A stretch of DNA of 20,361 nucleotides from Haemophilus paraphrohaemolyticus (lineage in GTDB: Bacteria > Pseudomonadota > Gammaproteobacteria > Enterobacterales > Pasteurellaceae), in the NCBI RefSeq assembly GCF_002015045.1, contig NZ_MUXX01000001.1, positions 54,328 to 74,688 of the forward strand. The letters run 5' to 3'. The notes below the pieces were generated by a model, which was not told the origin of the DNA, made no database searches, and was given only the letters and a program-made list of their open reading frames with translations. Below are positions 2,012-3,560 of this stretch, one piece after another (position 1 is the stretch's first letter; each line of letters opens with the position of its first letter). Made by a program: the position numbers and the translations under genes.

Positions 2012-3202
2012 TTATTTCACCGTCACACGGGCAAATTTACGTTTACCCACCTGGTAAACAAAAGTGCCTTTTTGTGCGTTTTGGCGAACATCATCCACTT
2101 TCTCGCCATCAATTTTTACGCCACCTTGTTGAGCAGAGCGGATGGCTTCAGAGGTTGATGGTACTAAGCCCGCTTCTTTTAATAAGGTTGCTAAACCAAT
2201 TTCGCCTTCAAAGGTAAATTCAGGCATTTCATCTGGCATCGCTCCTTTTTGGAAGCGGTTAATAAATTCCTGTTCTGCAGCGTTTGCCGCATCTTCGTTG
2301 TGGAAACGTGCAATGATTTCTTTCGCAAGTAAAATCTTCACATCACGCGGGTTTTTGCCTGCTTCGACTTCGGCTTTTAACTGCGCAATTTCTGTAAGCG
2401 GTCGGAAAGAGAGTAAATTATACCAATCCCACATTAATTCGTCAGAAATTGACATGATTTTGCCAAACATCTCGCTTGGAGCTTCGGTTACGCCGATATA
2501 GTTGCCAAGTGATTTCGACATTTTTTTCTCGCCGTCTAAACCCACTAAAAGCGGTAAAGTCATTGCCACCTGTGGTTTTTGCCCTGCAGATTTCTGTAAT
2601 TCACGACCGATCAACAAGTTGAAAGTTTGGTCTGTACCGCCGAGTTCCACATCGGCTTCTAATGCTACCGAGTCGTGACCTTGCAATAATGGGTAAATGA
2701 ACTCGTGGATCGCGATAGATTGTTGGTTTGCAAAGCGTTTTTTGAAGTCATCACGCTCAAGCATACGAGCCACTGTGTAGTTTGACGCTAAACGAATCAT
2801 ACCCACCGTTCCGAGTTCACCCAACCATTCTGAGTTAAATACGATACGCGTTTTTTGCGGATCTAAAATTTTGAAAATCTGCTCTTTATAGGTTTCTGCG
2901 TTGCGTAATACATCTTCACGAGAAAGTGGTGGACGAGTGGCATTTTTGCCTGATGGATCGCCCACCGTTGCGGTAAAGTCACCAATTAAGAAAATCACTT
3001 CGTGTCCAAAATTTTGGAATTGACGTAGTTTATTTAACACCACCGTGTGACCTAAATGAATATCGGGTGCTGTTGGGTCTGCACCTAGTTTTACACGTAA
3101 TGGACGGTTTTCTTTAAGTTTTTCGATTAAATCGGCTTCGGAGTAAATATCTTCTACACCACGCTTAAGCTCGGCAAGAATCGTTTCGATTGATTGGCTC
3201 AT
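2012..3202 (-). CDS. tyrS: Tyrosyl-tRNA synthetase
   Basis: This cytoplasmic enzyme charges tRNA-Tyr with tyrosine. The 396-residue product has the class I signatures HLGH at residues 49-52 and KMSKS at 227-231, separated by the Rossmann catalytic fold. A C-terminal S4-like RNA-binding domain covers roughly residues 330-396 ([20 protein letters not shown]). The short insertion pattern and length resemble the TyrZ-like bacterial subtype more than E. coli TyrS. The ATG is preceded by AAGGAA at good spacing and by a TATAAT -10 element at 3236-3241. A separate transcription unit ending at 3262 lies immediately upstream on the same strand. Confidence 0.97.
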
Positions 3203-3235
3203 AATGTTCCTTAAAATAGGCTGAAAAATGGTTCT

Positions 3236-3241
3236 ATTATA
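3236..3241 (-). promoter_or_regulatory. tyrS -10 promoter element
   Basis: Reading the - strand, a perfect TATAAT lies 34 bases upstream of the tyrS ATG. No convincing -35 hexamer sits at 16-18 bases, because that position is occupied by the T-rich tail of the preceding terminator. This supports a tyrS start independent of the upstream small transcript. Confidence 0.5.
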
Positions 3242-3261
3242 ACGGCTTTGAAAAAAAAATG

Positions 3262-3296
3262 AAAAAAAACGCCGTATTTTGTGGGGGAATACGGCG
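3262..3296 (-). terminator. Rho-independent terminator of the candidate sRNA
   Basis: A 9-bp perfect stem (arms 3270-3278 and 3288-3296, CGCCGTATT/AATACGGCG) with a 9-base loop is followed on the - strand by eight T residues (3262-3269). It lies upstream of tyrS and points toward it, so it must end an upstream transcript rather than tyrS itself. Confidence 0.85.
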
Positions 3297-3335
3297 CAAA
3301 GAGTTGGAGTGATTACCTATTATTATTTAGAATTT
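3262..3335 (-). ncRNA. Candidate Fur-controlled small RNA
   Basis: On the - strand, a near-consensus promoter (3342-3370) is followed by about 74 bases ending in a strong rho-independent terminator. The predicted start is an A near 3335. The transcript would have an AU-rich 5' part, a single-stranded pyrimidine-rich stretch (AATCACTCCAACTC, about 3304-3317), and a terminator hairpin with a C-rich loop (CCCCCAC). No start codon with a usable reading frame is present. A Fur-box-like sequence overlaps the promoter, so the RNA should be made under iron limitation. That is the behaviour of RyhB in enterobacteria and HrrF in Haemophilus. I cannot show homology to either from memory. Promoter, operator and terminator are seen directly; the sRNA role is inference. 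Confidence 0.65.
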
Positions 3336-3341
3336 TTATAA

Positions 3342-3370
3342 ATAATAATGATTATCACCAAAGAGGTCAA
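3342..3370 (-). promoter_or_regulatory. Sigma-70 promoter of the candidate sRNA
   Basis: On the - strand, TTGACC (3365-3370) and TATTAT (3342-3347) are separated by exactly 17 bases, close to the ideal sigma-70 layout. The Fur-like operator at 3343-3357 covers the -10 and the downstream half of the spacer, a position suited to repression. Confidence 0.7.
3343..3357 (-). promoter_or_regulatory. Fur-box-like operator
   Basis: On the - strand, TGATAATCATTATTA matches the 7-1-7 Fur consensus TGATAATnATTATCA at 13 of 14 defined positions. It overlaps the -10 region of the small-RNA promoter, so Fe-Fur binding would block RNA polymerase. Confidence 0.7.
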
Positions 3371-3382
3371 GTGATTTCTAAA

Positions 3383-3397
3383 TAAAAATAATTCTCA
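3383..3397 (-). promoter_or_regulatory. Second Fur-box-like site
   Basis: On the - strand, TGAGAATTATTTTTA matches 11 of 14 defined positions of the Fur 7-1-7 consensus. It lies 25 bases upstream of the first box, just above the -35 element. Paired Fur sites are common at iron-regulated promoters. Alone this site would be weak evidence because the region is AT-rich. Confidence 0.45.
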
Positions 3398-3560
3398 ATT
3401 GATTGATAGGGTAAAAAACGAACAAACTTTTACTTTCGAAGGCAGTTCACATTGCAAAATGAAAAAAAAAATCCAACATACTTCTCATTTTTGAAAATTG
3501 GTTGCTGATCTTCGTTGCATAAATCAGTAAAGTATCGCCATCAATTTAGGGAATTATAAA

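Follow-up and report, generated by a model that had tools for sequence, protein, structure and literature searches.

RyhB of E. coli is a short Fur-repressed RNA that spares iron. It has been reported to repress nrfA (PMC4666370). HrrF of Haemophilus influenzae is a Pasteurellaceae RNA for which six targets were reported, namely modABC, asnA, asnC and nrdB, and nrfA is not among them (PMC4144887). In Staphylococcus aureus, the Fur-regulated RNA IsrR is described as pairing through single-stranded C-rich regions over the Shine-Dalgarno and start of mRNAs for nitrate-related iron enzymes (PMC9410917). A 2010 study of A. pleuropneumoniae left open a role for RyhB or another sRNA in the iron response of Pasteurellaceae (PMC3091793). 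In A. actinomycetemcomitans, the only non-coding genes reported to change under iron restriction are two sRNAs, both of which rise and both of which are bound by Fur in ChIP-seq; one is the HrrF homologue, and the second, unnamed, was predicted to target nitrite reductase (PMC5156373; 2016).

In the window (the whole stretch of 20,361 nucleotides that was analysed), a predicted small RNA of about 74 nt is encoded on the minus strand at 3262..3335, between tyrS (2012..3202, minus strand) and cpdA. A preliminary description of this DNA had seen here the layout of an iron-sparing RNA, and the present analysis points the same way: the parts of the layout are conserved, the unit can be found apart from tyrS, and the Rfam models match the RNA to neither RyhB nor HrrF. 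Indeed, the minus strand carries, in this order, a Fur-like box TGAGAATTATTTTTA with 11/14 matches (3383..3397), the -35 hexamer TTGACC (3365..3370), a Fur-like 7-1-7 box TGATAATCATTATTA with 13/14 matches (3343..3357) lying over the -10 hexamer TATTAT (3342..3347), the RNA start, an open stretch and a terminator. The promoter (TTGACC-17-TATTAT, 3370-3342), the two boxes and the terminator, all listed in the preliminary description, were found again by scan, scoring and folding. We consider it probable that the segment 3335-3262 is a Pasteurellaceae-wide sRNA, predicted to be Fur-repressed and iron-sparing, that pairs with the mRNAs of iron-rich anaerobic enzymes at their ribosome-binding sites, above all with that of nrfA.

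The 5' end of the RNA (near 3335) was placed from the -10 hexamer and the 3' end at the U-run (3262..3269, eight T). The 74-nt RNA folds with a minimum free energy of -14.2 kcal/mol (z -4.0; 0/200 shuffles equal), in agreement with the strong terminator with eight T that had been placed about 74 bases downstream of the start. The terminator stem-loop (3269..3297) consists of a 10-bp stem closed by the loop CCCCCACAA (3279..3287), a second region with pairing potential, and is followed by the U-run. A terminator scan of the window called no terminator at the 3' end of the RNA, because the loop of 9 exceeds the range of 3-8 allowed by the scan. Between the RNA start and the terminator hairpin, the stretch AAUCACUCCAAC is mostly open; it holds the predicted seed AATCACTCCAAC (3303..3314), which is complementary to nrfA and hcp starts, and in the minimum free energy fold the stretch CACUCCAACUC is unpaired except for its CC, whose two bases pair weakly with a GG further upstream. 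As had been claimed, the RNA has no open reading frame in the window, where it contains neither ATG nor GTG; frames of at least 8 codons beginning with ATG or GTG occur in 14 of 137 RNAs (window included).

A 189-base stretch was compared by blastn with 140 genomes of Pasteurellaceae, the family of Actinobacillus vicugnae, and the best match or the region upstream of tyrS was examined for every genome. The RNA was found by script in 136 of the 140 genomes; two more copies, which failed the script pattern, are visible by eye (G053 and G056; L119 and L138), and no RNA was found upstream of tyrS in G119 and G129 (L146 and L148). The copies of G016 and G098 are divergent. The 12-mer AATCACTCCAAC is exact in 126/136 relatives, CCCAC is present in the terminator part of 135/136, and AATCACTCCA is invariant in an alignment of 66 sequences. 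The terminator stem varies while its CCCCACA loop stays constant: 57 distinct stems occur among 84 distinct segments, and several stem positions show GC, CG, AT and TA pairs, a count that rests on each sequence's own fold and so shows that pairing is kept rather than testing covariation independently. No consensus structure was obtained from the plain alignment. Target pairing combined with termination would be expected to leave such a pattern, in which the stem changes while the loop and one single-stranded stretch stay fixed.

The promoter is kept as well. Indeed, the first three bases of the -35 hexamer are TTG in 127/137 copies, the -10 hexamer is TATCAT in 126/137 and the spacer is 17 in 120/137. 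Fur-like boxes were scored against a 7-1-7 Fur consensus in 135 promoters (window included; L127 and L144 left out). The best score was 13-15 of 15 (N counted) in 135/135 promoters versus 20/2700 mononucleotide shuffles, a box of at least 12/14 is present at all 135, the best box overlaps the -10 hexamer in 119/135, and a second box of at least 11/14 is found in 103/135. A Fur box over a sigma-70 promoter, the mark of a Fur-repressed sRNA, is thus present in the sequence. The RNA is real and family-wide, and it has no Rfam family.

Because nitrite reductase had been predicted as a target of the Aggregatibacter sRNA (PMC5156373), the starts of nrfA were examined. This gene is present in 129/140 genomes; 59 start regions were read and 56 scored, as G034, G048 and G116 gave no start by the rule used. 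In 26 of the 59 genomes, the RNA and the nrfA start share perfect complementary runs of 11-15 nt, lengths that no more than 2 of 100 shuffled RNAs attain in any of these genomes; in the other 33 the perfect runs are only 6-9 nt. Among the 56 called starts, 15 carry the exact 13-mer TGGAGTGATTATC, 15 carry it with up to two mismatches, 11 carry TGTGGGG, 13 show a weaker G-rich form that is not always at the Shine-Dalgarno, and two, with miscalled starts, show none (G045 and G089). Two modes of pairing can be distinguished. In one set of genomes, which includes G017 and the best HrrF scorers and probably represents Aggregatibacter and Haemophilus, nrfA starts with GTG and is preceded by TGGAGTGATTATC, the exact complement of GATAATCACTCCA; in G017, which a JA03 match of 302 bits marks as probably A. 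actinomycetemcomitans, the RNA matches nrfA over 14 nt. In another set (G001, G002 and similar genomes), the stretch at the nrfA start is TTTTGTGGGGGA, or near it, which complements the terminator loop together with the adjoining bases. G070 and G071, the genomes most closely related to the window, have nrfA starts with CCTTGTGGGGGGAC, a 9-nt match to the loop. G001 is A. vicugnae, G002 is H. ducreyi and G003 is B. trehalosi; the remaining genus labels are our judgement, made on how the genomes score with HrrF and JA03 and on the order of the handles.

These matches were compared with 280 background starts. The background was drawn from naive open frames at 136 loci, which come from 65 genomes, and two of its three highest scorers are frames beginning inside the RNA gene itself (L038 and L039). 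The 99th percentile of this background is exceeded by 41/56 nrfA starts and 0/92 tyrS starts. The duplex energy over the whole nrfA stretch is weak, with 19/59 genomes at or below 5 of 100 shuffles, and the genomes are related, so that the nrfA counts are not independent. The nrfA evidence draws its weight from the occurrence of two different modes of pairing and from the prediction made by others.

The gene hcp (hybrid cluster protein, PF03063), present in 40/140 genomes, is a second candidate. The motif GGAGTGATT occurs in 14/31 hcp starts versus 0/280 background starts; of the 30 starts scored (that of G053, a genome with no scripted RNA, being left unscored), 13 exceed the 95th percentile of the background and 8 the 99th. 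Pairing is absent at about half of the hcp starts, including those of G060, G061, G068 and G069. The hcp starts of G070 and G071 carry TTTTGGAGTGATTTCTATG, and the window's own genome is predicted to have hcp starts of the TTTTGGAGTGATTTCTATG type and nrfA starts of the CCTTGTGGGGGGAC type, as in these two. Predicted pairing over the starts of iron enzymes is therefore found for nrfA and in part for hcp. The preliminary description had guessed that CACUCCAAC and the C-rich terminator loop could pair with ribosome-binding sites, and had proposed target prediction against iron-using enzymes. For nrfA the guess is borne out by conserved complementarity; for hcp this is so in part of the family.

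Twelve genomes were then scanned for further starts. The seed complement TGGAGTGAT followed by a start codon occurs 64 times versus 13 for its own reversed form, and a Shine-Dalgarno control, TGGAGTAGT, occurs 20 times versus 63 for the reversed form of the control. Apart from G033:C40:117646 and G123:C13:64461, the latter being the complement of the RNA gene itself, all of the 64 seed places were read. Among these 62 places are 26 open frames of 80 aa or more, and iron proteins are encoded by 9 of the frames: five are nrfA, and the others are hcp, a NiFe hydrogenase small subunit, a molybdopterin-Fe4S4 protein and an LldE-like CCG protein, the last three with a 9-base seed complement at their starts. 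The control pattern gave 4 frames of at least 80 aa in 20 places, one of them LldE-like, and the iron-protein share of 9/26 versus 1/4 in the control alone proves nothing. The loop pattern occurs at 195 places versus 75 for its reversed form; the 30 places read include 13 long frames, 7 of which were carried through Pfam and 3 of which encode iron proteins (AcnB, a HemN-type protein and a GlpC-type Fe-S protein), and at least one place, L317, falls on the complementary strand of the RNA gene. Where a gene name goes further than the Pfam domain, it is our own reading. In the window, the only start of note is that of ccmE (16903, minus strand), where TTTTGTGTGGG is a one-mismatch complement of the terminator loop and scores 21 (background 95th percentile 19, 99th 23); cytochrome c maturation serves NrfA. 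An FAD gene in the window scores 26, but the match is AT-rich and lies 32 bases upstream, beyond the region on which the background was scored.

The non-iron frames among the seed places (SirB, 3; DUF5374, 3; porin, 2; singles) bear on the alternative that survives best, namely that the RNA is a Fur-controlled sRNA whose main targets are something other than iron enzymes, such as porins, SirB-type or pilin-like proteins, with nrfA secondary. SirB-family starts match in 4 of the 12 scanned genomes, through the seed in three and the loop in a fourth (L215, L232, L261 and L320), DUF5374 starts match in three and porin starts in two. These matches are, however, seen in few genomes, whereas nrfA is matched family-wide and by two different parts of the RNA, and we regard this alternative as improbable. 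The RNA is very likely a Fur-controlled iron-sparing sRNA, for which nrfA is the best-supported target on the present evidence from complementarity and conservation.

As an iron-sparing sRNA, it would work as follows. In the presence of iron, the position of the boxes suggests that Fur on the -10 hexamer would block RNA polymerase and keep the RNA off; when iron is lost, Fur would be released and the RNA made. The complementarity suggests that the seed or the loop would then cover the stretch from the Shine-Dalgarno to the start of nrfA, of hcp in part of the family, and likewise of some further iron enzymes. Translation of the targets would fall and iron would be spared.

The place of the RNA next to tyrS raises a different explanation, according to which the promoter and hairpin form a leader and attenuator controlling the tyrosyl-tRNA synthetase. 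Across 137 copies (window included), tyrS lies co-directionally downstream within 600 bases in 103 (gap 59-456, median 84 nt), and sfsA (identified by PF03749) lies upstream in 84; both neighbours are present in 56 copies, tyrS only in 47, sfsA only in 28 and neither in 6, so that 131/137 copies lie beside tyrS and/or sfsA. The tyrS-cpdA gap given in the preliminary description therefore holds for the window, and does not hold as a rule: cpdA was seen as a neighbour only in the window, L012 and L013. Of the 34 copies without tyrS within 600 bases, two have it at roughly 640-690 and 32 have no tyrS in the examined flank (about 580 bases or more). Several copies without an adjacent tyrS do have it a few kb downstream on the same strand with other genes between, which could be taken, together with the 103 co-directional copies, in favour of a leader. 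Nevertheless, constant linkage to tyrS is not found: 28 of the 34 unlinked copies keep sfsA only and 6 neither neighbour, and a leader leaves the Fur boxes and the nrfA match unexplained. A tyrS leader is thus rejected as very unlikely, in line with the original view that the terminator closes a separate unit. The copies keep the RNA when tyrS or sfsA is gone, which indicates that the RNA is its own gene, with tyrS as a downstream neighbour outside the unit.

The covariance-model search against RyhB and HrrF that had been suggested was carried out with Rfam 15: over the window and 40 relative loci, no sRNA family reaches its cut-off and only tRNAs reach theirs, RyhB and HrrF (RF02728) included among those that do not. 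RyhB is absent even among the nine matches down to E 10 in window 3150-3500. The HrrF model matches 97/140 genomes at E 0.001, 62 of them over the cut-off, and all of the listed places lie away from the locus of this RNA; no HrrF match is found in G070 and G071, whose tyrS is nearest to that of the window. The models of JA03 and JA04 (RF02731 and RF02732) have no match at the locus and are located elsewhere in the ten genomes tested, and those of JA01 and JA02 (RF02729 and RF02730) reach the gathering score neither in the window nor at any of the 40 loci, that of G017 (L063) included. That the RNA is HrrF, a known JA RNA or a RyhB-type RNA in another place, for which the common layout (Fur box, short RNA, terminator) and the 7-mer CTCCAAC in common with HrrF might speak, is scarcely credible, as orthology is refuted by the different loci of HrrF in 97 genomes and of JA03 and JA04 in ten, and by the lack of any Rfam match over cut-off. 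No Rfam 15 family reaches its cut-off, and Rfam-based annotation would consequently miss this RNA. The HrrF copies at L162-L173 carry TTGCTCCAACAGG, in which CTCCAAC is common with the RNA, possibly by chance.

Compared with the described systems, the RNA resembles HrrF in its occurrence in Pasteurellaceae, its Fur box, its small size and CTCCAAC, but HrrF lies between pmbA and hpt, where this RNA does not, and belongs to a separate Rfam family found elsewhere in genomes that also have the RNA. With RyhB it would share the Fur-repressed, iron-sparing kind and nrfA as a target; it differs in its seed and in the terminator loop as a second pairing site. PrrF of Pseudomonas (RF00444) shows a weak model resemblance in the window (20.2 bits, E 0.32), yet far below its cut-off of 90 bits. 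IsrR, compared by its description, is alike in its Fur control, which is predicted for the RNA here, and in C-rich single strands over the Shine-Dalgarno and start, but comes from another phylum and has three C-rich regions versus one seed and one loop here. There is also a likeness by description to the unnamed sRNA of A. actinomycetemcomitans, which is Fur-bound, iron-responsive and predicted to target nitrite reductase, and which is perhaps this RNA. We place the RNA as a new family within a kind already known, that of the Fur-repressed iron-sparing sRNAs; one species may have given an earlier, nameless glimpse of it. A bolder proposal, which we put forward tentatively and which is somewhat more apt to fail than to hold, is that it is the long-missing RyhB counterpart of all Pasteurellaceae, a two-headed RNA (seed and loop) in which the hold on nrfA passed from one head to the other across lineages while the regulation was kept.

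Published data on the iron response are compatible with a role of this kind. In A. pleuropneumoniae, nrfA is reported to fall under iron restriction (PMC3091793), and the nrf, lld and fdo operons to fall under iron starvation, in a study that also mentions eight iron-responsive sRNAs (PMC12507848); the fall of these operons could be transcriptional instead. Iron-rich respiratory enzymes that fall are not among the reported HrrF targets (PMC4144887), a gap that the RNA would fill. If the proposal is true, the RNA would connect Fur with nrf, hcp and related operons, a connection so far missing in this family, whose members live as commensals or pathogens in humans and animals. A target gripped by different pairing heads in different lineages would offer a clear natural example of rewiring between an sRNA and its target, and the predicted pairing names the individual base pairs that can be tested. 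Against the proposal, the study of H. influenzae 86-028NP (NTHi) reports no Fur-dependent sRNA besides HrrF (PMC4144887). RNAs this short may be lost from standard mRNA libraries, and a kit that loses such sizes, or an RNA that is off there, may account for the silence of that study. Also against it, the table of Hfq-bound RNAs of A. pleuropneumoniae lists 14 RNAs, none with tyrS or sfsA named as a neighbour, although four are given by locus tag only (PMC9577009). Judged by title or opening of the abstract, none of the papers listed in literature searches treats this RNA; an earlier unnoticed listing is possible in published sRNA tables, such as that of 51 A. pleuropneumoniae sRNAs, given by locus tag (PMC4809551), and that of H. 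somni (PMC3262788).

Outside Pasteurellaceae, a search of 394 genomes of the order with the model R1 gave nothing convincing; R1 is a sequence-only model, as the alignment gave no consensus pair, and with the strict filters used distant relatives could be missed. All 34 matches at E 4.2e-8 or better are in genomes of the family set, and the next best, in G182 (3.2e-4), lacks the seed and was taken as chance.

Finally, some copies depart from the usual arrangement. Tandem pairs of the RNA are present in G105 (L015) and G033 (L122), and partial repeats of the seed-terminator unit lie downstream of the copy in G039 (L143). In nine loci (L118, L123, L124, L126, L128, L130, L134, L136 and L137), the distance from the -10 hexamer to the seed is 59-66 bases versus the usual 34-37 or so, and the longer stretch in this group looks like a small extra hairpin.
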